NCBI GenBank assembly: GCA_017440965.1
Contig: JAFSGH010000010.1
Span: 1-52,315, forward strand
Direction of reading: 5' to 3'
Source: Clostridia bacterium
GTDB lineage: Bacteria > Bacillota > Clostridia > Oscillospirales > Acutalibacteraceae
Length of the DNA stretch: 52,315 nt
The notes under the pieces are model-generated. The model did no database searches. It had not been told where the DNA came from and saw nothing but the letters and a program-made list of their open reading frames with translations. The first letter of the stretch is position 1, and the number at the start of each line of letters is the position of its first letter. Below, one piece after another: positions 10,286-52,315 of this stretch. The position numbers and the translations under genes were made by a program.

Positions 10286-10314
10286 TTGACTTTATGTTAC
10301 GGTTTTGTTAAAAT
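10286..10314 (+). promoter_or_regulatory. Promoter of the SCP2/aminotransferase/transketolase operon
   Basis: TTGACT (10286-10291), 17 bases, TAAAAT (10309-10314). The leader then holds a short hairpin, TCGGGG/CCCCGGA (10330-10350), just before the GGAGGG ribosome site. Confidence 0.65.
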
Positions 10315-10369
10315 GTATTGTGTATAATATCGGGGAGTATAACCCCCGGAAAAAATGGAGGGAAATGTT

Positions 10370-11131: not shown

Positions 11132-11144
11132 GGAGGAACAGAAA

Positions 11145-12395
11145 ATGGCAATTAAGATCAATAAATACGAAAAAAGCCGTGAGTGGTTTGACAGAGCCAC
11201 TAAGGTAGTTCCCTCAGGCGTGTACGGACATTTAGGTCCTGCAGAAGGAAACTTTATGCCTGTAACATCCTTCCCGCTTATGGGTGACAGAGCACAGGGC
11301 TCATATTTCTGGGATGTTGACGGAAACAGATTTATAGACTATATGTGTGCATACGGTCCCAATGTACTTGGCTACAACGATCCCGATGTTGATGCTGCAG
11401 CTGTTGAACAGCTTAAGAAAGGTAACTGTATGACTTCTCCCTCATATAAGATGGTAGAATTCGCAGAGCTGCTTGTTGACACAGTTGCCTGTGCAGACTG
11501 GGCTTTCTTTGCAAAGAACGGTAATGATGTTACAACTGCTGCTATTATGACAGCAAGAGCTGCTACTCATCGTAAGAAGATCGTCTTTATAAACGGTTAT
11601 TATCACGGTGTTTCACCCTGGACACAGAAGATCGACTATCCCGGTATCATTCCCGAGGATGTTGCAAATAACCTTTATATTGACTGGAATGATTTTGATC
11701 AGCTTCAGAAGGTATTTGATGATAATAAGGGTGAGATCGCAGCATTTATTTCAACACCTTATATGCACGGCAATTATCTTGATAACAGCCTTCCCGCAGA
11801 CGGCTATTGGAAGAAGGTAAGAGAGCTTTGTACAGCTAACGGCACAGTTCTTATCGTTGACGACGTTCGTTGCGGCTTCAGACTTGATCTTGCAGGCTCT
11901 GACCATTATTACGGCTTTGAAGCAGACCTTATCTGCTTCTGTAAGGCTCTTGCAAACGGATATAATGTATCTGCACTTTGCGGCAAGGATTCTCTTAAGA
12001 ATGCGGTAAGCTCACTTTCATATACAGGCTCATACTGGCTCAGTGCTATGCCCTTTGCAGCAGGTATCGCTTGTATCAACAAGATGAAGGAGCTTGATAC
12101 TCCTAAGATGTTCCGTGAGCTCGGTCTCAAGCTTACAGACGGACTTAAGGAGGTTGCGACTGCAAACGGCTTCAATATGGTCGTTTCCGGTGAACCCTCA
12201 CTGTTCTATCTCAGACTTGCTGATGACGATTCACTCTTTATTCACCAGGATTGGATCCAGGAATGCGTAAAGAGAGGTATCTTCTTTGCAGGTCACCACA
12301 ATCACTTTATCAATGCTTCTCTTACAGAAGAGGATATCAAGTATACTCTTGATGTTGCAGATGAAGCATTCAAGGCAATAAGAGCAAAATATTAA
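11145..12395 (+). CDS. Class III aminotransferase (GSA aminomutase-like)
   Basis: The 416-residue PLP enzyme is a second relative of glutamate-1-semialdehyde aminomutase. It has WDVDGNRFIDYMCAYGPNVLG, the NGNDVTTAA phosphate loop, VDDVRCGFR with the pyridine-binding Asp, and the PLP lysine in CFCKALANGYN. The start is ATG 11145 with AAGGAGG ten bases upstream, 13 bases after the previous stop. The SGTEA loop seen in its paralogue at 6788 is NGNDV here, so substrates probably differ. With a split transketolase downstream, it may aminate a ketose-like product, as in aminosugar or aminopolyol routes (inference). Confidence 0.88.
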   Translation: MAIKINKYEKSREWFDRATKVVPSGVYGHLGPAEGNFMPVTSFPLMGDRAQGSYFWDVDGNRFIDYMCAYGPNVLGYNDPDVDAAAVEQLKKGNCMTSPSYKMVEFAELLVDTVACADWAFFAKNGNDVTTAAIMTARAATHRKKIVFINGYYHGVSPWTQKIDYPGIIPEDVANNLYIDWNDFDQLQKVFDDNKGEIAAFISTPYMHGNYLDNSLPADGYWKKVRELCTANGTVLIVDDVRCGFRLDLAGSDHYYGFEADLICFCKALANGYNVSALCGKDSLKNAVSSLSYTGSYWLSAMPFAAGIACINKMKELDTPKMFRELGLKLTDGLKEVATANGFNMVVSGEPSLFYLRLADDDSLFIHQDWIQECVKRGIFFAGHHNHFINASLTEEDIKYTLDVADEAFKAIRAKY

Positions 12396-37803: not shown

Positions 37804-37935
37804 AGGTATTACCTCCGTTTGTTTGATTTTATCATATATGGCGTTGAAAGTCCACAGTGGAATTTCTGCACATAATTTGTCCTGTTGAATAATATGAAAT
37901 CGGGAGCTCCCTTAATAAATGAAAGGAGAGATGAT

Positions 37936-38127
37936 ATGAAAAACGATTGCGGTAAGGACTTTGACAGCTTTAAGCTGCTCAGTGCCTTGCCTGATGATAC
38001 GGTAACTGCAATGGCATATGTTCCGTTTCAGACCGATAAAACCATGTTCGATACAGAAATTGCACTTTCAAAAGGTACATTGTTTACAGATCTTTATAAG
38101 CCCTTTCTCAGAGGTGCATTGAAATGA
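37936..38127 (+). CDS. cotJA: Spore coat protein CotJA
   Basis: The 63-residue protein matches CotJA: MAYVPFQ, then ALSKGTLFTDLYKPF. It helps bring CotJC into the coat. The start is ATG 37936 with AAAGGAGAG; an earlier in-frame ATG (37885) has no site. It overlaps cotJB by four bases. In Bacillus the cotJ operon is mother-cell specific. Confidence 0.93.
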   Translation: MKNDCGKDFDSFKLLSALPDDTVTAMAYVPFQTDKTMFDTEIALSKGTLFTDLYKPFLRGALK

Positions 38128-38375
38128 CTAACAGAGAAAAGCTTCTGAGGAATCTTTCTTCAGTACAGTTTGCTTTATGGGAACTGCATTTGTATCTTAA
38201 TACCCATCCGAATGATATGACAGCACTTTCTATGCACGAAAAATATGACCTTAAATTCCGTAAGCTCAAAGAAGAATATGAGGAGAATTACGGTCCCTTA
38301 TCACCGAGAAACGGAGAGGGTATAGAATGGCTGAAAAATCCCTGGCCCTGGGATGTAGGAGGTTGTGACGGCTAA
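38124..38375 (+). CDS. cotJB: Spore coat protein CotJB
   Basis: The 83-residue protein fits CotJB: LLRNLSSVQFALWELHLYLNTHP and the C-terminal WPWD. It is a small coat component made with CotJA and CotJC. It overlaps both neighbours (four bases with cotJA, one base with cotJC), which shows intact operon structure up to this point. Confidence 0.93.
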   Translation: MTNREKLLRNLSSVQFALWELHLYLNTHPNDMTALSMHEKYDLKFRKLKEEYEENYGPLSPRNGEGIEWLKNPWPWDVGGCDG

Positions 38376-38839
38376 TGTGGATATATGAGAAAAAATTACA
38401 ATACCCCGTTAAAATAACAAGGTGCAATCCTAAACTTGCACAGATCATAATAAGCCAGTACGGCGGACCTGACGGTGAATTGGCGGCTTCGCTCAGATAC
38501 TTATCTCAACGTTATGCGATGCCGTATCCGGAGCTTAAGGGGTTGCTTACGGATATAGGAACCGAGGAGCTCGCGCACCTCGAAATGATAGGTGCTATTG
38601 TTTATCAGCTGACAAAGAATCTGTCCCGTCAGGAGATAGAAGCTTCGGGCTTTGATAAATACTTTGTTGATCACACTACGGGAGTTTATCCCGTAGCAGC
38701 CTCGGGAGCACCTTTTACTGCCGCGTATATACAGTCAAAGGGCGATGTTATAACAGATCTTCACGAAAATCTTGCCGCAGATGCCACGACCGCCAAAGAA
38801 CAACAAACATTTACAAGAGCCCGAAAACCCTTGATATGA
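38375..38839 (+). pseudogene. cotJC: cotJC, interrupted after about residue 137
   Basis: The frame reads as a normal manganese-catalase-like CotJC up to about residue 136 (GPDGELAASLRYLSQRY, EELAHLEMIG, DHTTGVYPVAASGAPFTAAYIQSKGD, HENLAAD). Near base 38783 it changes to an unrelated tail (TTAKEQQTFTRARKPLI) and stops. CotJC is normally about 190 residues; the lost end carries the last helix pair, including the REREVxHxxRF-type metal ligands. The break coincides with the start of island DNA carrying a large serine recombinase. It may be inactivated, or restored by excision in the mother cell. Confidence 0.85.
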
Positions 38840-38979
38840 CTGGCTTTTCGCCACTTTGAACCTTTTCGCAAAAACAGCATACCTGCACCATATAAGAACA
38901 ACTTGACCCCATTTTACACTAATTTTTACAAAATTCACAATAGGACAAGTTGTTTCTGAAGAAAAGAATACATAAAATC

Positions 38980-39007
38980 AGGCACGAGAAAGTCAAATCT
39001 CGTGCCT
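38980..39007. terminator. Terminator downstream of hsdR
   Basis: AGGCACGAGA (38980-38989) pairs with TCTCGTGCCT (38998-39007). On the minus strand GATTTTATG follows, and on the plus strand GGTTTGATTTTT. It ends the hsd operon and may also end transcription from cotJC. The stretch 38840-38979 shows no gene. Confidence 0.75.
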
Positions 39008-39037
39008 GGTTTGATTTTTGGGTTTTAATATTAGATC

Positions 39038-42000
39038 CTAGTTATCGGCAGTAATCAACCCAAAATATTTTTCAAAGAATGCTTTCAGTTTTTCAATGAC
39101 TTTCTGCTTCTTTTTATTACGGGAACCACCGCTACCGAAGCGAGATGTGGGCGGCATTAAATCGTTTATCTCTGTTCCGGATGTTTTCAATGTACCATCA
39201 CGGAACGCATTGGCAACGAATTTTCTGGTTTCTTCCGATTTGAGTTTTTCGGTGGTGATGATTTCCGTCAAATCGTTTTCTTCCTGCTCCAGAACAAATC
39301 TGCGCCAATCGGTAGTAACCTGTGTGTCAACATTGACATGGCTGATAAATGCTTCGATAAGCTCTTTCTTACTGCGAAGCTGCATACTTGCATCAACCGC
39401 TTTGCGGATAGAAGCAAGGATTTCTTTATCCTCGCAGTTGCCCTCGTGGTACTTCTCAACCAACATCAGTATGTAGTCGATATTGATTTCCACTTGCTTG
39501 ATAAGCTCGATTTCAAATTCAATATCGTCCGTAATATCTTCCTTTTCGCCGTCGCCTTTTTTGCGGTATTTATCATAGAGGTCAAGATAGATGCTCTGAT
39601 AATTCTGCAAATCTCTTGCGGCGATGCTGTCCATTTCTTCAAACTGGTCAAAGGACGAGAGAATATTTCTCATACTGAGGATAGTGCCGAACAGTCTGAT
39701 AAAGTCTTTTTCTGCCTGTTCACCAATAATTTCGCTGCCCAAAGGATATTCTGCTTCCAGTTTTTCAAGCAGTTCAATATAGCCGGGGTGGTATTTTCCG
39801 TTTGCATCCTCGTAGCCGTTCCAGTAATCATTGAAGCTCTTGAGAAGAACAATACCGCTTGCGTTCTTATCGCCAAAGAGAGCGATTGCATCATCTGTGG
39901 CTTTCTGCAAATCACGGAAGCAAACAATATTGCCGTAGGTCTTAACGGAGTTCAGAATACGGTTGGTTCTGGAATATGCTTGAATGAGTCCGTGCATTTT
40001 CAGATTCTTATCAACCCACAGGGTGTTAAGGGTAGTGGCATCAAAGCCCGTGAGGAACATATTCACGACAATCAGAAGATCTACTTCACGGTTCTTCACT
40101 CGCATGGACAAATCCTTGTAATAGTTCTGGAACTTATCAGAAGAAGTGTCAAAGTTGGTGTTGAAGGCGGCGTTATAATCTTGGATGGCACTTTCAAGGA
40201 AGTCACGGGAGGTCTGGTCAAGAGCATCGGTGTTGAAGCCTTCTTCTTGCAGAACGTCCTCGGGGTCATCCTCGTTTGCGGCATAGCTGAAAATCGTAGC
40301 AATAGTAAATTGACGGTGGCTCTCCGCAATCTGTCTCTGGAACTCCTTGTAATACTTCATTGCCATAGGAATGGAGCTTACAGCGAACATAGCGTTAAAG
40401 CCCGCCATGCGTTTGCCCTTCAAGGAGTAGTAACTGTTACGCTTAGTCTTCTGGTCGAAATGCTCCAGCGTGTATTTGACAATTTCACGAATACGCTCCG
40501 GCGCACCCATCGCCTTTTCAACGTCAATGGCAGAAACATTCTTGTCCTTGATGTTCTCTTTTTCCTTGACCGTATTCACATAGTCGATACGGAACGGGAG
40601 AACGTTGCCGTCATTGATAGCGTCCACGATTGTGTAAGTGTGGAGCTGATCGCCAAAGGTCTGCGGCGTGGTCAGCATCGTCAAATGCTTGCCCTTGCCT
40701 GCGTTGGCAGCGAAGATCGGCGTGCCTGTAAAACCGAACAGATGATATTTCTTGAACGCCTTTACGATTTTAGCGTGCATATCTCCGAACTGGCTGCGGT
40801 GGCACTCGTCGAAGATGATAACGCAATGCTTATTGAATACCTCATGTCCCTTGTTCTTGGTCACGAAGTTATCCAACTTCTGAATAGTCGTGATGATGAT
40901 CTTGTATTCGTGAAATCCGCCTTTTTCGTCTTTGTCCTCAAGCTGTCTCTGCAAAATTCTTGTAGAGGCGTTGCTGTTGGCAGAGCCTTTTTCAAAGCGG
41001 TCGTATTCCTTCATGGTCTGATAGTCAAGGTCTTTTCTATCGACCACGAACAGAACCTTGTCCACATAGGGGAGCGCAGATGCGAGCTGTGCGGTTTTGA
41101 AAGAGGTCAGCGTTTTGCCGCTTCCCGTGGTGTGCCAGATGTAACCGCCTGCATCCACCGTGCCCATCTTCTTGTAATTGGTCGAAACTTCGATGCGGTT
41201 GAGAATACGCTCGGTTGCCGCAATCTGATAGGGGCGCATAACCATCAGAATTTCTTCCGAGGTAAATACGCAATACTTGGTCAGCACGTTCAGAATGGTG
41301 TGCTTGGCAAGGAACGTCTTTGTAAAGTCAATAAGGTCTGCAATTACCTTGTTGTTGCCGTCTGCCCAGAAGGAAGTGAACTCAAAGCTGTTGCTTGTTT
41401 TCTTCGATTTCTGTTTTGCGGATTCGCCCATTTCCTTGATGTGGCTGTTTCTGGTGGTGTTGGAATAATACTTGGTATGCGTACCGTTGGAAATAATGAA
41501 AATCTGAACGTACTCATATAGTCCGCTTGCCGCCCAAAAGCTATCCCGCTGATAGCGTTTGATCTGATTAAAGGCTTCACGGATGGCAACGCCACGGCGT
41601 TTCAGTTCCACATGGACAAGGGGCAGACCGTTGACGAGAATGGTCACGTCATAGCGGGTGTCGTGGTTGCCCTCGGTCTCCACATACTGATTGATGACCT
41701 GCAAACGGTTGTTGTGAATGTTCTTTTTGTCGATGAGCTGAATATTCTTGGAAGTTCCGTCATCTCGGCGCAATACCTTTACATGGTCGGTCTGGATGGT
41801 GCGGCTTTTCTCAACAATACCCTCGTTAGCGTTGGCAAGCGTTTCTGTGAAGAAGCGTTTCCATTCGCTGTCGGTAAAGGTGTAGCCGTTCAAAAGCGTG
41901 AGCTGCCGTCTGAGGTTAGCTATCAGACCGTTTTTGTCATGGATGGTAAGGTATTCATATCCCTGTGTGGTCAGCAGACGGATAAATTCCTTTTCAAGAG

Positions 42001-42100
42001 CCGCTTCACTCTGGAAACTGTCAGAGCGTGAGCTTTCCGGCGTATATTCAGCTACAACGGTGCTTTCGTTGGTTTCTGCGATGATATTGAAATAGCTCAA
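39038..42100 (-). CDS. hsdR: Type I restriction enzyme R subunit (HsdR)
   Basis: The 1020-residue protein has the N-terminal PD-(D/E)xK nuclease (Asp151, then Glu165-Leu-Lys167 in VELKRRG), a DEAD-box translocase with Walker A TTGSGKT (324-330), DECH (431-434) and FTGTP, and a C-terminal helical domain that binds HsdM. It pulls and cuts unmodified DNA. The start is TTG 42100, eight bases after GGAGGTG, overlapping the preceding HEPN gene by four bases. It is last in the operon. Confidence 0.97.
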   Translation of the reverse strand: MSYFNIIAETNESTVVAEYTPESSRSDSFQSEAALEKEFIRLLTTQGYEYLTIHDKNGLIANLRRQLTLLNGYTFTDSEWKRFFTETLANANEGIVEKSRTIQTDHVKVLRRDDGTSKNIQLIDKKNIHNNRLQVINQYVETEGNHDTRYDVTILVNGLPLVHVELKRRGVAIREAFNQIKRYQRDSFWAASGLYEYVQIFIISNGTHTKYYSNTTRNSHIKEMGESAKQKSKKTSNSFEFTSFWADGNNKVIADLIDFTKTFLAKHTILNVLTKYCVFTSEEILMVMRPYQIAATERILNRIEVSTNYKKMGTVDAGGYIWHTTGSGKTLTSFKTAQLASALPYVDKVLFVVDRKDLDYQTMKEYDRFEKGSANSNASTRILQRQLEDKDEKGGFHEYKIIITTIQKLDNFVTKNKGHEVFNKHCVIIFDECHRSQFGDMHAKIVKAFKKYHLFGFTGTPIFAANAGKGKHLTMLTTPQTFGDQLHTYTIVDAINDGNVLPFRIDYVNTVKEKENIKDKNVSAIDVEKAMGAPERIREIVKYTLEHFDQKTKRNSYYSLKGKRMAGFNAMFAVSSIPMAMKYYKEFQRQIAESHRQFTIATIFSYAANEDDPEDVLQEEGFNTDALDQTSRDFLESAIQDYNAAFNTNFDTSSDKFQNYYKDLSMRVKNREVDLLIVVNMFLTGFDATTLNTLWVDKNLKMHGLIQAYSRTNRILNSVKTYGNIVCFRDLQKATDDAIALFGDKNASGIVLLKSFNDYWNGYEDANGKYHPGYIELLEKLEAEYPLGSEIIGEQAEKDFIRLFGTILSMRNILSSFDQFEEMDSIAARDLQNYQSIYLDLYDKYRKKGDGEKEDITDDIEFEIELIKQVEINIDYILMLVEKYHEGNCEDKEILASIRKAVDASMQLRSKKELIEAFISHVNVDTQVTTDWRRFVLEQEENDLTEIITTEKLKSEETRKFVANAFRDGTLKTSGTEINDLMPPTSRFGSGGSRNKKKQKVIEKLKAFFEKYFGLITADN

Positions 42101-43290
42101 GATGACACCTCCTCAGAGTTTTCTTGTAAATGCTTAATAATTAAAATACGTATAGTAGTGTATAGTACCTCAGCATATTGCTCATTTTCATCGTCTTTTA
42201 GATATTTCCCGTCCTTTTTTACATGAGAAAAACAGACACGATGTTCTCTAATTCTTCCAGAAAAATCTGTTATGCTTTTTGAAGTGGGCAAATATTCGCT
42301 AATATAATCATTGCGATATAGTGAACGTTCAATGGCAACTCGGAAAGAATCATGTCCGGGACGAGTGTCTGCAATATCTAAATAGTTAGCTAAACCTTCC
42401 ATCGTTTGTGATAATCTCAAAGGATAATCTTCCCGGAAAGAATTGCTGTATGCTGTAGTTCTAAACACATCAAAGATGATTCCACTATCTTCTCTAAAAG
42501 TCATAAAACTGATAAAATTTTTGCTATTAAGTGCCTTGATGCAAAAAACTTTACTTTTTGTGTTTGTACTTTTTGTATACAAACTTTTTTTCCGTGATTC
42601 TCCATTGTTCGCACGATTAAAGCACTTTAGAACGTATGAATTTTCCCCGACATAAACAATCAATCTATCATAGAAAAACATATTTTCATAGCATAAAAAA
42701 GCAAATTCGGATAGTCTCCATATGATTTTTTCGAGTTTTTCAAATGACTGTTTCCCCGTCAAAGTAAATTTAATTCTTTTCGTGAATATTCCCTCAAAAT
42801 TCGCACCCATCCATTCGAGAATCTCGGGTGTTAATTCATACTGCGGTTCGGAGATTATATGAACATTATTGTAAGTAAAATCAAGTTGAATGGCTTTTGA
42901 ATATTCCGCTTCAAATTCGGCTTGTTCTACGGTCAGATTTTTTAAGTTCTCAAAGTGTTCGTAGAATAGCAATACATTAAAAGAAAAATCAATATAAAAT
43001 TCAAAGTGGTAATATTTTAAAACATATGAAAAACCATACAATGTGTATTTGTTGCCGTGTTCATCGACAACAAATAAATATTCGCATTTATATTTTTCAT
43101 ACGGCTTTATTTTTTTATGTTTAACTAATTCCCGGATTACTTCACTATTTTCAATGTTTTTGCCGAAAATTCGATGAGCATTTGTATTATTGTCAAATTC
43201 AAATGATATATCAACATCGGCAACTTCATCATCTTCAATAGGAAGATTTAGAATTTTAACTATATTTAGTTTTCTATCATCAGAATTCAT
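42097..43290 (-). CDS. HEPN-domain protein embedded in the type I RM operon
   Basis: The 397-residue protein has a mixed N-terminal domain (about 1-300) and a helical C-terminal domain with RVCFSH (351-356). This fits the Rx4-6H motif of HEPN ribonucleases; the Asn usual after Arg is Val here. The layout resembles ApeA-type abortive-infection proteins. It overlaps hsdS (43287-43290) and hsdR (42097-42100) by four bases each, so it is translated with them. By analogy with PrrC, the anticodon nuclease encoded inside a type I locus, it could be a backup toxin set off when restriction fails (inference). Confidence 0.6.
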   Translation of the reverse strand: MNSDDRKLNIVKILNLPIEDDEVADVDISFEFDNNTNAHRIFGKNIENSEVIRELVKHKKIKPYEKYKCEYLFVVDEHGNKYTLYGFSYVLKYYHFEFYIDFSFNVLLFYEHFENLKNLTVEQAEFEAEYSKAIQLDFTYNNVHIISEPQYELTPEILEWMGANFEGIFTKRIKFTLTGKQSFEKLEKIIWRLSEFAFLCYENMFFYDRLIVYVGENSYVLKCFNRANNGESRKKSLYTKSTNTKSKVFCIKALNSKNFISFMTFREDSGIIFDVFRTTAYSNSFREDYPLRLSQTMEGLANYLDIADTRPGHDSFRVAIERSLYRNDYISEYLPTSKSITDFSGRIREHRVCFSHVKKDGKYLKDDENEQYAEVLYTTIRILIIKHLQENSEEVSS

Positions 43291-44489
43291 GTGTTCAACT
43301 CCTTAAATGTAAGCAACTTGTCCCGATAATACTCATACTGCTTTTGCCTTGCTTCAATCTCTGCAGGAAGTCCTTCAGAAAAATCATTGCATAGGGTATC
43401 GAATTTATTAAGAATAGCTACAATTCTTTTCTGTTCGGAGAAAGGAGGAAGAGGAACCTCCAAGCTGTAGAACTTTTTATGCGGTAAATCTGGAACACTT
43501 CCGCCCGAAGCTGCATCTAACATTTTTCTATACATCAATTTGCTTCTTAACAGACATAACATATATTTTTTATCTACTTTTTCATTACAATTCACCTTAA
43601 AAAAGTTATTGTGAAAACACCCTTCAACACCGGAAATAATTACCCCTGTACTTCCTGTTCTTGTAACCAAAATATCATCCTTATGGCATATCACTTGCTC
43701 ATCAGGATTTTCAATATAATATTGATTATCCTCTTTGTTTTTCAAGAATTGAACCGTAATGTACATATACCTATTGGGGGCTGGACTCTTGAATCTATTG
43801 CTGATAGCAACTTGCAATCCTTGATTAACGGTACATAATTCTTGTAATTTTACCCTTTCGTAGTCATTGTCAAAAAGAAGATGGTGTTCAAAATATTCGT
43901 ACTGCTTCTTTCTTGCAGAGAGCTCCGCTGTAAGCTCCGCTGTAAGCTCCGTGAAATTGTCCAGAATACGGACAATTTCACTCTGCACAGGCAGAGGGGG
44001 CACGGGAATAGGAATATCTAAAACCTTCGACATATCTGGATGTTTTATCCCCGAACCTCTATAATATGACGATATATCTGGCAACATTTTTAACAAATAA
44101 TAATACAAATATTTTGTGTTTAATTGGTTGCTATCTAAAACAATCGCGATTCTATTATCGCCTGTAATAAACTTGCCTTTATAATATTGAACAATAGGAT
44201 TGCCGCCCCAAGGGATACATACAATTTCTGCATTTGACAATCTTTCTTCTACATCCTCTTCGTTTGCCCACAAATCTGTTATACTCGTTGTAAGTATTTT
44301 TACATTACCATTTTCGCGTTCAAGATTTTTAAGATCTGCGGCTAAATAGTAATTATATTTTAATATCTTTTTTTGCTTGTCTTTTTCAACGGCATTGAAT
44401 CTTTTATCCCATGCTGTCAAGGACCACAACGGAAGATATTCCACTCCATTTGGGCAAAGTTCCTCTATAAGTTGTTCAAGTTTTGTCAT
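43287..44489 (-). CDS. hsdS: Type I restriction-modification specificity subunit (HsdS)
   Basis: The 400-residue protein has two target-recognition domains (about 15-175 and 215-370), each followed by a conserved helix (VPPLPVQSEIVRILDNF and LPPFSEQKRIVAILNKF). Between them is the TAEL-type repeat (ELTAELTAELSARKKQYEY). It decides which split DNA sequence is recognised. ATG 44489 has AAAGGGAT upstream. The gene follows the small coiled-coil gene by 11 bases and overlaps the HEPN gene. Confidence 0.95.
   Translation of the reverse strand: MTKLEQLIEELCPNGVEYLPLWSLTAWDKRFNAVEKDKQKKILKYNYYLAADLKNLERENGNVKILTTSITDLWANEEDVEERLSNAEIVCIPWGGNPIVQYYKGKFITGDNRIAIVLDSNQLNTKYLYYYLLKMLPDISSYYRGSGIKHPDMSKVLDIPIPVPPLPVQSEIVRILDNFTELTAELTAELSARKKQYEYFEHHLLFDNDYERVKLQELCTVNQGLQVAISNRFKSPAPNRYMYITVQFLKNKEDNQYYIENPDEQVICHKDDILVTRTGSTGVIISGVEGCFHNNFFKVNCNEKVDKKYMLCLLRSKLMYRKMLDAASGGSVPDLPHKKFYSLEVPLPPFSEQKRIVAILNKFDTLCNDFSEGLPAEIEARQKQYEYYRDKLLTFKELNT
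43921..43951 (-). repeat. 12-bp tandem repeat in hsdS encoding TAEL
   Basis: AGCTCCGCTGTA occurs exactly twice (43921-43932, 43933-43944) and partly again (43945-43951). On the coding strand it gives the amino acid repeat TAEL. It lies between the two recognition domains, where copy number sets the distance between them. Confidence 0.9.
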
Positions 44490-44500
44490 TTTTTATCCCT

Positions 44501-44800
44501 TTATTTCACCAACAACGGCATTAAAATAGTAGCAACTAATGTAAGAAACGCAATTGTTGCCATTAAGTAATTCAAGCATTTACTTATCTTCAATTCCTTA
44601 TTGCTTGAGTCATTAGCTTCTTTTAATGCTTGGTTTTGTTCTTTCAACAATTCGTTTTGTTCTCTCAACAAAGCTATCTGTTGTTCTTCTCGTTCAACCT
44701 CTTTGTCGTGCCACTCTTGTTCTCTCATTTTTTCATAAACAATATTGGGCAATGGTGGGTTAGTAACCATTTTAGGAAGTTTAAAATTATTCAAATTCAT
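44501..44800 (-). CDS. Coiled-coil, C-tail-anchored small protein in the hsd operon
   Basis: The 99-residue protein has a long coiled coil (about 25-70; KEVEREEQQIALLREQNELL) and one C-terminal membrane helix (about 76-98; YLMATIAFLTLVATILMPLL). ATG 44800 has TAAGGTGA. It lies between hsdM and hsdS with 11-base spacing on both sides, so it belongs to the operon. I recognise no family. It could tether the complex to the membrane or sense phage entry; this is speculation. Confidence 0.7.
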   Translation of the reverse strand: MNLNNFKLPKMVTNPPLPNIVYEKMREQEWHDKEVEREEQQIALLREQNELLKEQNQALKEANDSSNKELKISKCLNYLMATIAFLTLVATILMPLLVK

Positions 44801-44811
44801 ATCGTGTCACC

Positions 44812-46380
44812 TTAAAATTTATTTTCAATCTCTGCAATTATCTTGTCAATCTCATCACGGAGAAGCTGTTCACGGGCAACGATTTCCGCAATCTCGGCAT
44901 TGAGCTTCACAATGTCGATTTTCTCTCGGGTATCCTCCGCTTCAACATAGGTGGAAACAGAAAGGTTGTAGTCATTCTCTGCGATTTCCTCATAGCTTGC
45001 CAGATGGGAGAAGTGTGCTTCCTCTGCACGCTTGGCAAAGGTCTCCACAATTCTGTCCATGTTTGCCTGTGTCAGCTTATTGTTGTTCGTAACCTTGATG
45101 CACTCGCCTGTAGCATCAATAAACAGGGTCTTGTTGTCGGACTTTCCTTTCTTCAAAACCATGATGCAGGTTGCAATGGAAGTACCGAAAAACAGATTGC
45201 TCGGCAACTGGATGATGCAGTCGATAAAGTTATTGTCGATCAGATACTTTCTGATTTTCTGCTCTGCGCCGCCACGGTACATAATACCGGGGAAGCAAAC
45301 GATCGCCGCCGTTCCGCCTGTTGCAAGCCAGGAAAGAGAGTGCATGATAAACGCAAGGTCAGCCTTGGATTTCGGCGCAAGAACACCCGCAGGAGAAAAA
45401 CGAGGGTCGTTGATCAGCAGAGGATTATCGTCGCCAGCCCACTTGATGGAGTAAGGGGGATTGGAAACGATCAGTTCAAACGGCTCGTCATCCCAATGCT
45501 GCGGTGCGGTCAATGTGTCCTCGCAGGCAATATCGAACTTATCAAAGCCCACGTCATGCAGGAACATATTGATGCGGCAGAGGTTATATGTAGTGATATT
45601 GATTTCCTGGCCGTAAAAGCCGTTTCTGACGGCATCCTTACCGAGAATCTTTTCTGCTTTCAGAAGCAGAGAGCCAGATCCACACGCAGGGTCATAGACT
45701 TTATTGATTTCAGTCTTACCCACCGTGCCGAGTCTGGTGAGCAATTCGGAAACATCAGCAGGAGTAAAGAACTCACCGCCGGATTTGCCTGCACCCGACG
45801 CGTACATGGTCATCAGATATTCATAGGCGTCGCCAAAGGCATCAATATCGTGATCTTTCATGTCGCCGAGGTTCATATTGGCTACGCCGTGCAACAGCTT
45901 GGCAAGGCGTTCGTTTCTCTTTGCTACGGTAGAGCCGAGCTTGTTGCTGTTTACGTCAAAATCGGCAAACAAGCCGTCAAAGCTACTTTCGGAAGTAGAA
46001 CCCTTTGCGGATGCTTCGATATGGTTGAACACACGCTCCAAGGTTTCATTCAGATTTTCGTCATTATCGGCTCTACCGTTGACGTTGCAGAACAGTTCGG
46101 ACGGAGGAATGAAAAAGCCTTTTTCTTCAACCAAGCCCTCACGAGCTTCCTCTGCATCGGCATCGGACATCTTTGCATAATCAAAATCGGTATTACCGGC
46201 ATCCTGTTCACCGGCGTTGATGTAGTTGGTCAGATTTTCGGAGATATATCTGTAAAACATTGTGCCGAGGACGTAATTTTTGAAATCCCATCCGTCCACA
46301 GCACCACGAAGCTCGTCTGCAATCGCCCATATCGCACGGTGCAGCTCATCTCTTTTTTGAATGTTTCTTATATCGGACAT
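44812..46380 (-). CDS. hsdM: Type I DNA methyltransferase subunit (HsdM)
   Basis: The 522-residue protein has the N-terminal helical HsdM domain and the adenine-methylase motifs DPACGSG (230-236) and NPPY (307-310). It transfers a methyl group from S-adenosylmethionine to adenine in the HsdS target and is part of the restriction complex. ATG 46380 has a GAGGTAATT upstream. It is third in the operon, after the regulator and the Fic stub. Confidence 0.97.
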   Translation of the reverse strand: MSDIRNIQKRDELHRAIWAIADELRGAVDGWDFKNYVLGTMFYRYISENLTNYINAGEQDAGNTDFDYAKMSDADAEEAREGLVEEKGFFIPPSELFCNVNGRADNDENLNETLERVFNHIEASAKGSTSESSFDGLFADFDVNSNKLGSTVAKRNERLAKLLHGVANMNLGDMKDHDIDAFGDAYEYLMTMYASGAGKSGGEFFTPADVSELLTRLGTVGKTEINKVYDPACGSGSLLLKAEKILGKDAVRNGFYGQEINITTYNLCRINMFLHDVGFDKFDIACEDTLTAPQHWDDEPFELIVSNPPYSIKWAGDDNPLLINDPRFSPAGVLAPKSKADLAFIMHSLSWLATGGTAAIVCFPGIMYRGGAEQKIRKYLIDNNFIDCIIQLPSNLFFGTSIATCIMVLKKGKSDNKTLFIDATGECIKVTNNNKLTQANMDRIVETFAKRAEEAHFSHLASYEEIAENDYNLSVSTYVEAEDTREKIDIVKLNAEIAEIVAREQLLRDEIDKIIAEIENKF

Positions 46381-46390
46381 ATTAATTACC

Positions 46391-46561
46391 TCATAATTCT
46401 TCTGTCTTGAAGGTTGTATAACCCTCGTAGTAGTAGCCGGCCTCCAGGCTGTCCAGTACGCCGTTTTTAAAAAGCTCTACCGCTTTTTTCTTGCTGATGC
46501 GTTCCTCTGCTTCTGCAAGCGTAGGGGAGCTTGTGATGCCAAGTTTATTTTCCAGTGCCAT
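46391..46561 (-). CDS. Fic N-terminal stub (truncated Fic/Fido protein)
   Basis: The 56-residue product (MALENKLGITSSPTLAEAEE...) closely matches the first 35-40 residues of Fic-family cell filamentation proteins, including ERISKKKAVELF. The rest, with the HPFREGNGR catalytic motif, is absent, and a short foreign tail (YYYEGYTTFKTEEL) follows. The start has GGAGGAC seven bases upstream and lies one base after the regulator's stop. So it is translated, not just debris. It could be an antitoxin-like fragment or a remnant of a fic gene. Confidence 0.65.
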   Translation of the reverse strand: MALENKLGITSSPTLAEAEERISKKKAVELFKNGVLDSLEAGYYYEGYTTFKTEEL

Positions 46562-46562
46562 T

Positions 46563-46784
46563 TTATTTGTCCTCCTTCGCTTCATCGGGGACAAACTCCA
46601 TAATGTCATCCACATTGCAACCAAGGGCAGCACAGACCTTGCCCAGGGTGTCCACCTGAACAGATTCATTCCTGCCCATCTTCGCCATAGCGTTGGAAGT
46701 GATGCCCGATAGCTTTACAAGCTCGGTCTTTTTAAGTCCTCTGTCAATAAGTAATTTCCACAATTTATTGTAACTGATAGCCAT
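46563..46784 (-). CDS. XRE-family helix-turn-helix regulator
   Basis: The 73-residue protein has a HTH of the XRE/Cro type (LVKLSGITSNAMAKMGRNES) and a C-terminal VDTLGKVCAALGCNVDDIMEF block of the HTH_26/YozG kind. The start is ATG 46784, with CGGAGG upstream, placed after the promoter at 46816-46844. As first gene it probably controls the RM operon, as many control proteins do, to delay restriction in a new host. A palindrome overlaps the -10. Confidence 0.9.
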   Translation of the reverse strand: MAISYNKLWKLLIDRGLKKTELVKLSGITSNAMAKMGRNESVQVDTLGKVCAALGCNVDDIMEFVPDEAKEDK

Positions 46785-46803
46785 AGGAAACCTCCGAAGG
46801 TTA

Positions 46804-46844
46804 GTATATACAGATATTATACCACAATTTGCGGATATTTTCAA
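46804..46844 (-). promoter_or_regulatory. Promoter and candidate operator of the RM operon
   Basis: On the minus strand TTGAAA (46844-46839), 17 bases, TATAAT (46821-46816). The imperfect palindrome GTATA...TATAC (46804-46822) covers the -10, as expected for self-repression by the XRE protein. Confidence 0.75.
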
Positions 46845-46914
46845 TAATTTTTAGGTGTTTTTCAAAATAAAATTGAGTTTTTCAAGTTTTCGGCACATTA
46901 ATAACGTTCCCCTA

Positions 46915-46950
46915 AAAAAGCAAAAGACGCTGCAACGAAGCAACGTCTTT
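46915..46950 (-). terminator. Terminator of the ACT/MBL-MATE-FeMo-co operon
   Basis: On the minus strand AAAGACG (46950-46944) pairs with CGTCTTT (46929-46923), followed by TGCTTTTTT. Confidence 0.8.
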
Positions 46951-46956
46951 GTTGAT

Positions 46957-47367
46957 TTAATGACAACCGTGAGAACCGCAGTTACTGCCGCAGCCGTGGT
47001 CGCCACAGGTATGTCCCTCACCGTGGTGATGGTCGTGGTGGTCACACTTGGCTTCGGGAGCATAGTTCAAACTGTTTACAAGGAAGGCTTCCACTGCTTC
47101 GTCCGCATTACCGTTGACACCGCCGAAAAGTTTGATGCCTGCCTGTGCCAGAGCCATCTGCGCACCGCCGCCGATGCCGCCGCAAATGAGTACGTCTGCA
47201 TTCAGCGAAGAAAGAAGTCCTGCCAATGCACCGTGGCCGCTACCGTTGGTATCTACTACTTCTGCATTTACGATCTTACCGTCCTCTACCTCGTAGAGCT
47301 TAAACTGTGCGGTATGACCGAAGTGCTGAAAAACTTCACCGTTTTCGTAGGTTACTGCAATTTTCAT
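46957..47367 (-). CDS. Dinitrogenase FeMo-cofactor-like (NifX/NifB C-terminal) protein
   Basis: The 136-residue protein has a Nitro_FeMo-Co domain (about 1-105; MKIAVTYENGEVFQHFGHTAQF, ICGGIGGGAQMAL). The tail is His/Cys-rich (DHHDHHHGEGHTCGDHGCGSNCG). Relatives bind iron-sulfur or molybdenum clusters. No nitrogenase genes are near, so a metal-binding or storage role is more likely. It overlaps the MATE gene by four bases. ATG has a GGAGAAG site. Confidence 0.88.
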   Translation of the reverse strand: MKIAVTYENGEVFQHFGHTAQFKLYEVEDGKIVNAEVVDTNGSGHGALAGLLSSLNADVLICGGIGGGAQMALAQAGIKLFGGVNGNADEAVEAFLVNSLNYAPEAKCDHHDHHHGEGHTCGDHGCGSNCGSHGCH

Positions 47368-48737
47368 TGTATCTTCTCCATTTCTACTTTTTTAAGTGAT
47401 TTTTTAAATTGAACGGCAAAAAGGATTGCCGTAAAGCTTACTGCAATAATATCAGCCGCCGGCTCGGCGAGGTAAACGCCCATTGTCTTATCCTGCACAA
47501 GATTGGGAATCAAATAAATAAACGGGAGAAGCAGGACGAATTTACGCACTATGGCAACGATGATAGAGCAAGGTGCGTTACCGGTGGAAACAAAGGTCAT
47601 CTGGCAAGCGATCTGAATACCGAAAATACACATCACGCCGCAGTATATTCGCAGGGCGTTTGCGGTAAATTCGATCAACTCTTTGTCGGGTGTAAATATG
47701 CCCGCAAATACTTGGGGGAACAGCATAATAGCACCCCAGATAACAAAGGAATATCCAACACAGGTTATCAATAAAAGCTTGAAGGTCTTTTTTACACGGT
47801 CGGTATTTTTCGCACCGTAATTATAGCTGGAAATGGGCTGTGCACCCTGAGCAATGCCCTGCATGGGAAGCATAGCGAACTGCATCACGCTGGTGAGGAT
47901 GGTCATTGCACCCACGGCAATGTCGCCGCCGTATTTGAGAAGCGAGGAATTAAAGCAGACCGAGATCACACTTTCACTGCTTTGCATAATGAATGCAGAA
48001 AGCCCTAACGCAACGCACGGGAAAACGAGCTTTCCGTCAATACGCATATTCTTTCTTTGAAGCTTTAAGTAGGTCTTCTTCCCGCTGAGGAAGCTGAGCA
48101 CCCAAACACAAGATATCGCCTGCGAAATGATCGTAGCCAGTGCCGCACCCTTAACGCCGAGATTACAGGCGAAAATGAAAATGGGGTCAAGAATAATATT
48201 GCTGACCGCACCGATGAGCACTGTCATCATACCAACCTTTGCAAAGCCCTGGGCGGTGATGAATGCACCCATACCGAGGGTAAGCTGAACGAAGATCGTT
48301 CCGATGGCGTAGATGTCCATATAGTCCGTGGCATAACCGATAGTATTCTTGCTTGCGCCGAACATCAACAGCAGATCCTCATTCCAGATCATTAGTACGA
48401 CAGTCAGAATTGCAGAGAGAAAGAGCTGAAGCGTAAAGCAGCCGCCCAAGATCTTTTCGGCAGATTCGTTATCGCCTTTGCCCATATAGATGGATGCCCT
48501 TGGTGCACCGCCGAAGCTGATAAGAGCCGCAAAAGCGGATATGATCATAATGATAGGCATACATACGCCCACGCCCGTCAGCGCCAGACTGCCTTCCCCG
48601 GGTATATGACCGATATAAATGCGGTCAACGATGTTGTAAAGCATATTAATAAGCTGAGCCACCACCGTGGGAAGTGCAAGCTTAAACAGCAGCTTTCCGA
48701 TGGGTGCCGTACCCAGCATCTCTTTGTTGTCGTTCAT
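47364..48737 (-). CDS. MATE-family efflux transporter
   Basis: The 457-residue membrane protein has twelve hydrophobic helices and MATE motifs (GTAPIGKLLFKLALP, MLYNIVDRIYIG, GGAPRASIYMGKGD). It exports cationic compounds, using Na+ or H+. ATG 48737 has AAGGAATG; an earlier in-frame start at 48833 would run into the preceding gene. It is coupled to the FeMo-co-like gene downstream by a four-base overlap, and lies 34 bases after the ACT/MBL gene. Confidence 0.92.
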   Translation of the reverse strand: MNDNKEMLGTAPIGKLLFKLALPTVVAQLINMLYNIVDRIYIGHIPGEGSLALTGVGVCMPIIMIISAFAALISFGGAPRASIYMGKGDNESAEKILGGCFTLQLFLSAILTVVLMIWNEDLLLMFGASKNTIGYATDYMDIYAIGTIFVQLTLGMGAFITAQGFAKVGMMTVLIGAVSNIILDPIFIFACNLGVKGAALATIISQAISCVWVLSFLSGKKTYLKLQRKNMRIDGKLVFPCVALGLSAFIMQSSESVISVCFNSSLLKYGGDIAVGAMTILTSVMQFAMLPMQGIAQGAQPISSYNYGAKNTDRVKKTFKLLLITCVGYSFVIWGAIMLFPQVFAGIFTPDKELIEFTANALRIYCGVMCIFGIQIACQMTFVSTGNAPCSIIVAIVRKFVLLLPFIYLIPNLVQDKTMGVYLAEPAADIIAVSFTAILFAVQFKKSLKKVEMEKIQ

Positions 48738-48771
48738 AGTATCATTCCTTGCCGTTTGTGTTTCATAATCA

Positions 48772-50208
48772 TTAAGAATTAACCGAGTAATCCTTTTTGA
48801 AGCCGTGTGCTCCGAAAATTTGCCATTGTCCAACTCCGAGACGTTGCATCACTGCCTTGCGTTCCTCGGCGCACAGCTTGGGATCGGTATCTACGGATGT
48901 CATCAAAATCGGAGCATACTGATTATATTCCGCTTGCTCTTTCGTTAAACCGTGAACATTGATATAAATATCTCCCGTCAAAGCAATATGATGGGTATAA
49001 TCGATCAGAACGATCTCTCCGGGTAAATGACCGCCTCTACCTTCATACACTTCAAAATGCATTTCACCGAAATCAAAGAAACCAATTTGAGTAAGCGGTT
49101 CGGACAAATTTTCATAATCAGTCCAAGGAGCTGTGATCTTTTCGGGGGTGACCGCTTTGTAAGACGTAAGGATCTTACAGATATTGATATACGGTTTGTG
49201 AAGCGGATTTTCTTCGCGGTATCCATCCTTTTCCAAAAATTCATTTTTTAAACAAAGCGCAGTTTTGACACTTGCAATGACTTGATCAAACAATGACAGC
49301 AGACCGCAATGATCAACGTCGGCATGGGTAACAAGAATGGTTTTCTTTACGTTATCAAAATCGGGGATAACCTTTCTGAAAACTTCCAGCATTTCATCCT
49401 GATAACAAGCATAACCGCTGTCTACAAACAGATAATTGTCCTCACTTTTTATGATGATGGTGTTGCTTCCGCAGGGAGGTTCAATTAAGGTGATCTCGGT
49501 GCTTTCGGTTACCTTATGGGTGCTGATTCTCGGCATAAATGCTCTACCTTTAGAAGCACCCAGTAATTCTGCAAATTTACTTATACTATCAAACGTTCTG
49601 TAGGGTGATAACCCTTGCTCGTCCAGCGTCTGCATAGCAAGATTAACATGAACCAAAAGTTCCTGACTGACATCCTGCGAAAGTCCCATTGTCTTGGAAA
49701 GGCCCATCACGTAATTGCTGTAAAAAATACTGTTATCATAAACCTTTTCGGAACTGTTATAATCGATCACACGCACACGGCAGAGTTTTTCCGCCTCCTT
49801 GAGAAAAGCAGATATCTTATCAATATCTTCAACATACAATCCCATCTTAAAATATTGATGATCGCTGCCGTTTTCTTGCGAGCTGATATAAGAAATATTA
49901 AAATTAAAATCATTGATAAGCGTTAGAACATTTGTGACGCTTCCGGGAACATCTTCAAGGCAAAACTCAATTAAGACAACACTTGTTTTGCCCGCATTGT
50001 TTTGCAAATACCCGATTTTTTTAAGTTCTACATCGGCTTTTTTCAATTGTTCCCCAGTACCTTCGGCATCAATAAACAGCGTGTGAGAATCAACAGCTTT
50101 ATTATAGCTTACACGGGTAATATTGATTCCCAAAGCAGAAAAGCATTTGCTTGCTTTCAGAAAGGCACCGATGTGATTCGGCATGGAAGTAACATACGTC
50201 TTTTTCAT
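48772..50208 (-). CDS. ACT-ACT-metallo-beta-lactamase fusion protein
   Basis: The 478-residue protein begins with two ACT ligand-binding domains (about 1-68 and 74-148; LEDVPGSVTNVLTLINDFNFN). The linker (about 150-235) is helical, and a metallo-beta-lactamase domain follows (about 236-460) with the metal motif THADVDH (294-300), GGHLPGE and LTGDI. ACT domains usually bind amino acids, so activity may be controlled by one. ATG 50208 has a CAGGTGAT upstream. It is first in the operon. No enzyme activity can be named. Confidence 0.85.
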   Translation of the reverse strand: MKKTYVTSMPNHIGAFLKASKCFSALGINITRVSYNKAVDSHTLFIDAEGTGEQLKKADVELKKIGYLQNNAGKTSVVLIEFCLEDVPGSVTNVLTLINDFNFNISYISSQENGSDHQYFKMGLYVEDIDKISAFLKEAEKLCRVRVIDYNSSEKVYDNSIFYSNYVMGLSKTMGLSQDVSQELLVHVNLAMQTLDEQGLSPYRTFDSISKFAELLGASKGRAFMPRISTHKVTESTEITLIEPPCGSNTIIIKSEDNYLFVDSGYACYQDEMLEVFRKVIPDFDNVKKTILVTHADVDHCGLLSLFDQVIASVKTALCLKNEFLEKDGYREENPLHKPYINICKILTSYKAVTPEKITAPWTDYENLSEPLTQIGFFDFGEMHFEVYEGRGGHLPGEIVLIDYTHHIALTGDIYINVHGLTKEQAEYNQYAPILMTSVDTDPKLCAEERKAVMQRLGVGQWQIFGAHGFKKDYSVNS

Positions 50209-50454
50209 TGTATCACCTGAATTGACAAAACATTGCTATTTGATAAAATTCACAAATCCTTTTATTTTTCAAAATTATACTACTCTTTTTTTTCAAAATC
50301 AATATAGAAACACACGAAAACTCGCAGGTTGCGTGGCATTTGGCTTTTTACTTGCCAAAATGAATCTCTCTTTTCATCTTATGGATACGCACTCTCGGAA
50401 TAGCGGACTTGCCGTTTTTCATATAGTGTAGTATCAACTTTTGGGAGGTTTTAT

Positions 50455-50607
50455 ATGGCAGAAAACAACGAGCCTAAAACCGTTTGCGTTAGTGTTTTTA
50501 AAAGCGGCGAAAGCACTACCACCGAGCGCGAATTCACTGACAAGTGGATCGAACTTATCAATACGATAGAGAAAGGCAAAAGTGCAAACTTTTGCGAAAA
50601 AGCGTGA
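50455..50607 (+). CDS. Small protein gene before the serine recombinase
   Basis: The 50-residue protein (MAENNEPKTV...) has GGGAGG eight bases before ATG and a normal TGA stop, 68 bases before the recombinase start. It is hydrophilic with no membrane segment. Small genes beside serine recombinases can encode directionality factors that permit excision, but nothing in this sequence proves that. The stretch 50209-50454 between the two operons has only promoter-like AT-rich DNA and no gene. Confidence 0.6.
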   Translation: MAENNEPKTVCVSVFKSGESTTTEREFTDKWIELINTIEKGKSANFCEKA

Positions 50608-50675
50608 CTAAAGGAACCATTTATGGTATAACGGATGTGGAAACAGCTTGTTCTGTCTCAAAAGGAGATGGAAAA

Positions 50676-52229
50676 TTGAAAGTAGCTATTTATTGCCGCT
50701 TATCCGAAGAAGACAGAAACAAGCAACTTGTTACCGACGACTCAGGCAGCATTCAGAACCAAAAAGCGATGCTGGTGCAATACTCTCTCGAACAGGGGTG
50801 GGAGATTTTCCGTATTTACAGCGACGATGACTACGCCGGTGCGGACAGACGCCGACCGGAGTTTAACCGCCTACTGCAGGACGCAGAAGCGAGAAAATTT
50901 GATATTATCCTCTGCAAGACACAATCCCGTTTCACCCGTGAGCTGGAGCTGGTGGAAAAGTACATCCACGGTTTATTCCCCATCTGGGGCATTCGCTTTA
51001 TCAGCATCGTGGACAATGCCGACACCGACAACAAGGGTAACAAAAAGTCCCGCCAGATCAACGGACTTGTAAACGAATGGTACTTAGAGGATATGTCCGA
51101 CAACATCCGCAGTGTTCTGAAAAACAGACGGGAAAACGGATTCCATATCGGTGCCTTTGCCCTTTACGGGTACAAAAAAGACCCCGATCAAAAGGGGCGT
51201 CTGATCATCGACGAGGAAGCCGCCGCTGTGGTTCGTGAGGTATTCACCCTCTTTTCCCAGGGCTACGGAAAGACCGCGATCGCCCGTATGCTCAATGACA
51301 GAGGCATCCCCAATCCAACCGAATACAAGCGTCTTAAAGGATTGCGTTACAAGCAACCTACCGCCAAAAACAGCACACTTTGGAAATACTTTGCGATTTC
51401 CGATATGCTGGTCAATGAGATCTACATCGGCAATATGGTACAGGGCAAATACGGCAGTATTTCCTACAAGACGAAGCAAAACAAGCCGCGCCCCAAAAGC
51501 CAGTGGTACATCGTTGAGGGAACACACGACCCCATCATCGACCGTGAGCTTTGGGACAGGGTACAAAAGATGATAAAGGAACGGGCAAAGCCTTTTGATG
51601 TTGGCACTATCGGTCTGTTTGCAAGAAAGGCTCGCTGTGCCAACTGCGGATATGTGATGCGTTCCTCTAAAAATCGAGGCAAGCACTATCTGCAGTGCTC
51701 CAACCGTCACGTGGCAAAGGATGCCTGTATCGGCTCCTTTATCTCGGTTGATAAATTGGAACAGATGGTAATCGACGAGCTGAGCCGCCTTTCCGAGGAC
51801 TATTTGAACAAGGACGATTTGGAAAGAAAGATCGAATTCTGTAATGATCTGCAAGCGCAGAAAGCCAGTATCCTTAAAAACATCGCCACCTACGAAAAGC
51901 GTGTTGGGGAACTGTCTAAAGGTATTCGGGAACTGTACATGGATAAGGCCAAAGGACTCATCAGCGGTGCAGACTATACAGAGATGTCCAAAGACTTTAT
52001 TGCAGACCGTGACCGCCTTGAAAAACTCATTTCAGACGGTCGTAAACAGATCGAAGAAATCGATGTAAAAATCGAAGTCGGCGACAACCGCAGAGAGATC
52101 ATCGAGCGTTACACAAACCTCAAACACCTGAATCGTGAGATGGTTGATATCCTTATTGACTACATTTCCGTAGACAAGAGAATCCCCAAAACTAAGGACG
52201 TTCCGATAACAATACATTGGAGTTTTTAG
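50676..52229 (+). CDS. Large serine recombinase
   Basis: The 517-residue enzyme has a resolvase domain (about 1-150) with catalytic Ser10 in YCRLSEEDR, a recombinase domain (about 160-310), a zinc ribbon (Cys321, Cys324, Cys341, Cys351) and a C-terminal coiled coil (about 375-470). It catalyses site-specific recombination between attachment sites for integration or excision of an element. The start is TTG 50676, eight bases after AAAGGAG. It stands at the far end of the island that breaks cotJC. Confidence 0.95.
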   Translation: MKVAIYCRLSEEDRNKQLVTDDSGSIQNQKAMLVQYSLEQGWEIFRIYSDDDYAGADRRRPEFNRLLQDAEARKFDIILCKTQSRFTRELELVEKYIHGLFPIWGIRFISIVDNADTDNKGNKKSRQINGLVNEWYLEDMSDNIRSVLKNRRENGFHIGAFALYGYKKDPDQKGRLIIDEEAAAVVREVFTLFSQGYGKTAIARMLNDRGIPNPTEYKRLKGLRYKQPTAKNSTLWKYFAISDMLVNEIYIGNMVQGKYGSISYKTKQNKPRPKSQWYIVEGTHDPIIDRELWDRVQKMIKERAKPFDVGTIGLFARKARCANCGYVMRSSKNRGKHYLQCSNRHVAKDACIGSFISVDKLEQMVIDELSRLSEDYLNKDDLERKIEFCNDLQAQKASILKNIATYEKRVGELSKGIRELYMDKAKGLISGADYTEMSKDFIADRDRLEKLISDGRKQIEEIDVKIEVGDNRREIIERYTNLKHLNREMVDILIDYISVDKRIPKTKDVPITIHWSF

Positions 52230-52313
52230 TGATATATTTTGCCAAAGGCAAAATGTGATATAATTTTCTTGCGAAAATTGTGATATATTCCGTTTTTAAC
52301 GGAATGTGATATA
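52229..52313 (+). repeat. Hairpin array with constant TGTGATATA linkers
   Basis: Three different hairpins, TTTTGCC/GGCAAAA (52237-52253), AATTTTC/GAAAATT (52262-52279) and TTCCGTT/AACGGAA (52288-52304), are separated by linkers GTGATATA/TGTGATATA at 52229, 52254, 52279 and 52305, a period of 25-26 bases. The stems change while pairing is kept. The array starts at the recombinase stop codon and runs past the window end. Confidence 0.85.
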
Positions 52314-52315
52314 AA

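Follow-up and report, generated by a model that had tools for sequence, protein, structure and literature searches.

Elements that interrupt the coding sequence of a sporulation gene and are removed from it by site-specific recombination have been described in sigK, spsM, spoVFB, spoVR, gerE, and yabG, according to the accessible portions of the sources (PMC5025042; PMC10747680; PMC4191935; PMC5595907). In the literature that we have searched, which covered few subscription journals and preprints, no report tying cotJC to an intervening element was found, and cotJC and a serine recombinase come together there, in the excerpts available, in the form of a prophage located beside a CotJC-like gene in Clostridioides difficile. 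In the present work, we have analyzed a stretch of 52,315 nucleotides from a Clostridia bacterium of the family Acutalibacteraceae (assembly GCA_017440965.1, contig JAFSGH010000010.1), hereafter referred to as the window, in which the gene cotJC is cut short by an island that carries the gene for a large serine recombinase (LSR). Our analyses point, with a probability that we place at roughly 80%, to a gene-intervening element that its own LSR has put into a bacterial attachment site (attB) within cotJC and whose excision would restore the gene.

The window comprises the entire contig C83 of a draft genome of 2.28 Mb that consists of 86 contigs and is 86% complete. On its forward strand, the genes cotJA and cotJB and the start of cotJC follow one another in this order (Table 1), and the first two are open frames, as had been stated in a preliminary description of this DNA that was made from the sequence itself; the name cotJA rests on position and on that description, and the gene has no family match in NCBIfam or PADLOC. 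The frame of cotJC runs from a start at 38375 to a stop at 38839 (154 codons), and the intact CotJC of a genome from the same genus (G006; genomes, contigs, and loci are designated by G, C, and L numbers) consists of 201 amino acids (aa). Residues 1–136 of the window protein share 95% identity with the latter; the sequence is native up to codon 135, codon 136 (38780–38782) is the last one containing native bases, and foreign DNA lies beyond it. The region from Glu136 onwards, including the His170 motif, is missing, and the frame leaves CotJC within codon 136, in agreement with the earlier claim that the 3' end and its ligand motif are lost where the island begins. The locus thereby shares with skin-type elements the interruption of the coding sequence of a sporulation gene. 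The first 190–240 bp of the island are 84–87% identical to the left ends of elements in G013, G236, and G113, which are cut at the same codon, and 79% identical over 127 bp to that in G122. Because the left end of the island resembles elements cut at the same codon in relatives, the break in cotJC is not a matter of chance. The LSR, in which resolvase, recombinase, and zinc-ribbon domains are united in one chain of about 500 aa as expected for this group of enzymes, ends about 13.4 kb after the break, and the edge of the contig (52315) lies 86 bp past its stop codon. The right attachment site (attR) and the 3' part of cotJC are expected just past this edge, and our account of the right junction is taken from relatives.

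A total of 49 pairs of junctions from genomes of relatives have been compared, which fall into four cut sites designated S1 (11 pairs), S2 (17 pairs), S3 (18 pairs; the site of the window), and S4 (3 pairs). At S3, the bases GA, which are the first two of codon 136, are found on both sides in 18/18 pairs, and at S2 (17/17) and S1 (11/11) the GG of a conserved glycine codon is likewise present on both sides; the three S4 pairs have a shared run at residues 172–177. The preliminary description had foreseen a short repeat near 38780–38800, and the relatives have a common core, 2 to 11 bp long and including GA in every case, the counterpart of which in the window is listed in Table 1. When the halves are joined according to this core rule (joins made without it are poor), all 37 single-site pairs, from three sites, give an open frame of at least 175 codons, the joins of G282 and G217 being shortened by the end of a contig or by the match itself; for G266 and G250b, both of them S2 pairs, joining works best at the glutamate codons that come next. 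Among the 12 pairs from genes that are cut more than once, 11 are open across the join, and the remaining one (G158b) meets an immediate stop since the frame was read from a point preceding the true junction. G015, which is cut at the codon of the window, has both halves in the same direction on a single contig, with 11.7 kb between them, and in G013, cut at the same codon, they are on two contigs. The 3' part of cotJC had been predicted to lie beyond the recombinase, and this is its place in G236, where a CotJC match is found 94 bp past the stop codon of an LSR. The skin-type interpretation first proposed for the split gene is hence supported, as far as sequence goes, by both junctions and by the in-frame joins in relatives. 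Contig ends that overlap at the junction, which might point to a mixture of forms, were not seen in G242, G212, G197, G113, G236, G111, or G148. Among these seven, G242 is the sole genome in which both contigs (C26 and C30; L238 and L239, base 1) end at the core, here that of S2, and they have only the bases GAA in common; a population containing both split and joined forms might cause such an assembly.

The recombinases provide further evidence of a relationship with the cut sites. A tree of 49 LSRs including that of the window, with one distant LSR from the same genome added, splits by site into S1 (11), S2a (15), S2b (2), S3 (19), and S4 (2), each with starred support; the site label changes 3 times on the tree, the minimum for four labels, and the orientation label 14 times. 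Because the rows of the tree were picked for adjoining cotJC, it demonstrates a correspondence of lineage with site and does not show such LSRs to be confined to these places. In 42 of the 48 elements from relatives, the 3' end of the LSR gene overlaps a cotJC piece or lies no more than about 160 bp from one, with the LSR running either along cotJC before the 3' part or against cotJC after the 5' part; the six elements lacking an adjoining LSR 3' end are those of G143, G223, G217, G048, G266, and G250b. A search of 257 genomes of the order with the LSR of the window yields 25 matches of at least 60% identity in 24 genomes, the window included. Of the other 24 matches, 23 have a cotJC piece at S3 no farther than about 220 bp away (the remaining one is on contig C39 of G209), and a full-length ortholog of cotJC is present in none of these 24 genomes. 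Among 14 LSR matches below 50% identity, six adjoin cotJC (G244, G226, G142, G177, G131, and G108), five are from genomes with a full-length cotJC (G061, G172, G104, G169, and G105), those in G179 and G176 are far from the cotJC cut of their own genome, and the last is from G281. Visual inspection recognized no sporulation gene beside a second, distant LSR of the window's genome (contig C55; 29%), where no family search was carried out. A curiosity is found in G150 (L212, 764–2947), where the LSR frame continues stop-free into the 3' piece of cotJC for a total of 728 codons. In CotJC alignments judged by eye, the four cuts are located at, or within about six codons of, Glu35, Glu65, His68, Glu136, and His170, residues that we take to face the ligand positions of manganese catalase. 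The LSRs have likely settled on the DNA that is least free to vary.

Split copies of cotJC are widespread in the order. A search with the CotJC of G006 (E value 1e-6) was carried out in the 257 genomes, for which a completeness of at least 90% was asked, the window's own genome excepted. Matches are present in 216 genomes, of which 103 span the protein; 16 stop at residues 175–186, which reflects either an S4 cut or a diverged end, and 97 are fragmentary or distant. All of the latter except G036 (96/97) were searched again. In the first set, 62 of 69 genomes have complementary pieces and seven, including that of the window, have one piece. The second set of 27 non-intact genomes consists of 10 with complementary pieces (G209 without the middle), 10 with one or a doubtful piece, and seven with only a distant paralog of 34–37% identity. 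Overall, 209 genomes have a CotJC ortholog, which is fragmentary in 90 and present as complementary pieces in 72; the pieces were classed by eye, and the least sure of the 72 are G136 (overlapping pieces) and G212 (a piece at a contig end). Successive pieces share a contig in 36 genomes, and in 34 of these they follow one another in order on one strand. The best 80 loci matching the CotJC of G006 each cover nearly the whole protein and are mostly from ruminant and gut metagenome genomes.

Several of these genes have been cut more than once. Four pieces are found in G158, G079, G068, G204, and G142, and five ordered pieces are present on one contig of G216 (C1, 205516–288984; L252–L256), where they extend over 83 kb. 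For each of seven LSRs around the pieces of G216 and G068, none of which is part of the tree set, the best hit is the class of its own cut (viz. S1, S2a, S2b, S3, and S4 in G216, and S3 and S4 in G068). In G216, the S2a and S2b types are both located between the second and third pieces, and therefore at least one stretch may hold two elements. We consider it rather probable that cotJC serves as a dock for the S1, S2a, S2b, S3, and S4 recombinases, each using one ligand motif, and that genes in three to five pieces would need several excisions in a single mother cell, amounting to a multi-step splicing of DNA.

The element behaves as a module whose ends are alike among the S3 elements while the cargo differs. 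The last 2 kb, comprising a 50 aa open reading frame (ORF) and the LSR, are 76–89% identical to other S3 elements, except in G111 (70%), and a single 357-bp stretch of the cargo is 92% identical to G013. Between the window and G236, 90 of 134 CotJC residues are alike and the LSRs are 96% identical, which indicates that the element moves between families. The relatives carry genes for polysaccharides (G032), an ATP-binding cassette transporter (G292), sugar uptake (G095), or conjugation-type and phage-integrase functions (G015), and the single-contig genome G223 (L177) has a 3-kb element that contains, besides its LSR, a gene for a pyrimidine nucleoside phosphorylase and that could serve as a test case of small size. 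Pieces of cotJC are present in six of the ten IMG/VR contigs that carry a related LSR; their distance from the LSR is at most about 300 bp in five of these and 3.3 kb in the sixth (L260). In one IMG/VR contig (L261, 9635–11605), a cotJC piece (residues 63–136) lies between recombinase genes, the second of which (9887–11605) is of another type.

These results lead us to propose the following course of events. The LSR would integrate the island at the attB within cotJC, at the GA of the Glu136 codon, and the left junction would then represent the left attachment site (attL), while the LSR gene would lie next to attR at the opposite end. Excision of the island by this same LSR, probably with its 50 aa neighbor acting as a directionality factor, would rebuild cotJC in frame and release a circle. 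Because the mother cell is where CotJC, a protein of the spore coat, is made, excision would most likely take place there; the coat gene would work in the mother cell and the chromosome of the spore would keep the island. Site-specific integration into cotJC is well supported by our results, an excision that restores cotJC is their best reading, and the mother-cell timing is suggested by analogy with the elements skin, yin, and gin. Taken together, the data suggest a gene that is mended by the removal of DNA at sporulation.

Some features of the element may be related to the control of excision. Members of the 50 aa family precede the LSR in 13 of the 16 S3 elements examined, the window counted, and are lacking in G095, G131, and G226; their charge varies (isoelectric point 5.0 in the window and 9.1 in G072), and no match for the window protein was found in PHROGs, the sole family library searched. 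Its conserved position makes this protein a candidate recombination directionality factor. Ahead of its gene, a promoter-like block (GGAATAGCGGACTTGCCG..TTCATATAGTGTA) is common to six elements (window, G013, G148, G072, G151, and G236); it may resemble mother-cell promoters and, as a predicted promoter, suggests regulation. In the window, G013, G236, and G113, the motif AGRACAAS is located at about +17, +115, and +162 of the left arm, and other elements have it at a subset of these positions; 30 copies are found in 23 left arms against 0.57 expected from mononucleotide shuffles, a comparison in which related arms are not independent, and nine of the 23 arms have none. A looser sigma-E pattern was not found upstream of cotJC in the window or in G006.

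The shared promoter-like block also bears on the alternative that the element excises randomly, or upon stress or a phage-like induction, and not in sporulation, with cotJC restored in a minority of cells. Circles of yin, the element in yabG, are reported at all time points in the available part of one study (PMC10747680), and the two contigs of G242 ending at the S2 core are what a mixed population could give. The conservation of the block in six elements speaks against this alternative, which we regard as unlikely.

According to another alternative, cotJC is only a tolerated integration site that islands and prophages use because its ligand codons are conserved DNA, and the gene is dead and undergoes no programmed excision. 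It would agree with the fact that no excision has been observed and that some of the elements are present in viral collections. The coat of C. difficile can do without the CotJC homologues of that species, according to the accessible part of the report (PMC11222575), and a dead cotJC could therefore be tolerated. The ratio of nonsynonymous to synonymous substitution rates (dN/dS) of the 3' pieces, which do not possess their own start, is low, viz. 0.014 for G013 and G015, 0.067, 0.029, and 0.049 for three S3 pairs from a single genus, and 0.026 for one S2 pair; these five pairs were the ones for which it could be computed, and the other pairs compared were saturated. The selection that these values record may be old and predate the insertions, because the elements move between families and change often, and the same-genus pairs compared, whose LSRs differ in orientation or clade, include none with a vertically inherited element, from which selection in the split state would be evident. 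A better argument is the absence of broken pieces: with 72 of 209 genomes split, decay should show if the gene were dead, yet 37/37 single-site pairs are open, a result to be read with the caution that strongly decayed pieces are hard to find and would escape the searches used. Moreover, genes in four or five open pieces would require repeated hits on a dead gene. We thus judge a merely tolerated site to be distinctly unlikely.

Besides the dispensability of the C. difficile homologues and the possible age of the selection, a number of observations weigh against the proposed restoration of cotJC by excision. The pieces in G189 (contig C3) are on opposite strands and those in G129 (contig C1) are not in order and are separated by 675 kb, and therefore simple excision would not restore cotJC there, a point that also favors a tolerated site; these are either rearranged or dead copies. 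Two patterns for the joined attachment site of the element (attP) gave no match in viral contigs, neither a joined cotJC nor a circle was found, and a strict sigma-E pattern has no match in the window. In the window's own draft, 86% complete, there is no match for the C-terminal 66 aa of CotJC or for SpoIVA. Because of this incompleteness, the 3' part is not to be called absent. SpoIVA is present in 40/41 good-quality relatives and in 21/25 other genomes of the genus, the four members without a match being 58–86% complete, and the gap is read as incompleteness because nearly all relatives have the protein. The same draft contains no other match for the N-terminal part of CotJC or for PF05067; a second intact cotJC, which the preliminary description had named as a finding that would speak against it, was accordingly not found. 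Repeats inside 38375–52315 are weak and unrelated to the junction. Lastly, a false join at the cotJC break through assembly or binning, as a draft in 86 contigs could contain, is extremely improbable in view of the same codon and a similar left end in other genomes and of the split cotJC with ordered pieces, at sites other than that of the window, in the single-contig genomes G032, G223, and G176.

The remaining features of the island are summarized in Table 1. The combination of an LSR with a restriction cargo that was noted earlier is borne out by the matches to a type I system and to the three LSR domains. The 397 aa ORF between hsdR and hsdS has no match in Pfam, PADLOC, NCBIfam, or PHROGs. 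A 92 aa ORF (46391–46669), which overlaps the gene for a small helix-turn-helix (HTH) protein (46563–46844), has a partial match to the candidate defense family PDC-S04. The array of repeats and hairpins after the LSR is the only such place in the genome by the pattern used. Apart from the integrase, no phage structural gene was found among the window proteins scanned (10 with Pfam, 6 with PHROGs), the right end of the element being outside the contig.

Table 1. Features of the cotJ region and of the element in the window.
Feature	Position	Strand	Basis
cotJA	37936..38127	+	ATG at 37936 within ORF 37885-38127; open frame adjoining cotJB
cotJB, intact	38124..38375	+	83 aa open frame; near-identical ORF precedes cotJC in G015
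cotJC 5' part, residues 1-136	38375..38782	+	PF05067, E value 3.6e-42
GA, crossover core within Glu136 codon (attL side)	38780..38781	+	common to both junctions in 18/18 relatives' pairs
Left end of element, non-coding, three AGRACAAS copies	38782..39015	+	likeness to relatives' left ends
hsdR (type I restriction cargo)	39038-42100	-	Pfam, PADLOC
397 aa ORF between hsdR and hsdS	42097-43290	-	no family
hsdS	43287-44489	-	Pfam, PADLOC
99 aa ORF in restriction block	44501-44800	-	
hsdM	44812-46380	-	Pfam, PADLOC
Second cargo block including small HTH protein	46391..50208	-	Pfam
NifX-type domain protein	46957-47367	-	Pfam
MATE transporter	47364-48833	-	Pfam
ACT/metallo-beta-lactamase protein	48772-50208	-	Pfam
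Promoter-like block (predicted)	50397..50430	+	ahead of the 50 aa gene
50 aa protein, candidate recombination directionality factor	50455..50607	+	family kept beside LSR
LSR, 517 aa, TTG start	50676..52229	+	PF00239, PF07508, PF13408 over cut-off; PHROG 95 integrase
Four GTGATATA copies with three different hairpins between	52230..52313	+	pattern search; runs to contig edge

If the proposed interpretation is true, programmed removal of DNA in sporulation would be a common process throughout a large order of gut bacteria (72/209 genomes with an ortholog) and not a trait of a few strains. The gene would also offer a harmless berth for islands, including restriction systems, that the growing cell and the spore would keep and the dying mother cell would lose. 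The loci described here would provide naturally occurring attachment sites together with the recombinases dedicated to them and with candidate directionality factors, and would allow one to ask whether a single mother cell can make several excisions on one gene.

In comparison with the known systems, whose features are given here as stated in the accessible portions of the sources, the element is similar to skin in sigK of C. difficile and Bacillus subtilis, where a sporulation gene is likewise split and the element is removed by its own LSR with a small directionality factor (in C. difficile the 72 aa protein CD1234, made under sigma-E and SpoIIID; PMC5025042). It differs from skin in its target gene, which is able to hold several elements, in being known from its DNA alone, and in its candidate factor, which differs in name and sits right before the LSR. 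The element SP-beta in spsM, vfbin in spoVFB, the spoVR elements, and yin in yabG are also excisable elements that interrupt sporulation genes (PMC10747680; PMC5025042; PMC4191935); however, cotJC is not among the genes named in the portions of those sources that were available, and the proteins scanned in the window include no phage structural gene. The non-prophage element gin in gerE of Bacillus cereus resembles that of the window in having an LSR together with a tiny protein, which in gin is the 42 aa factor GirX (PMC5595907), but gin has three serine recombinases within 28.6 kb, whereas one LSR is seen in the window. The presence of several elements in one gene, at fixed positions and with their own recombinases, has its counterpart in the heterocyst elements of cyanobacteria, of which nifD of Rivularia holds four, although these belong to another phylum and another form of development, and about half of their recombinases are of the tyrosine type (PMC4874684).

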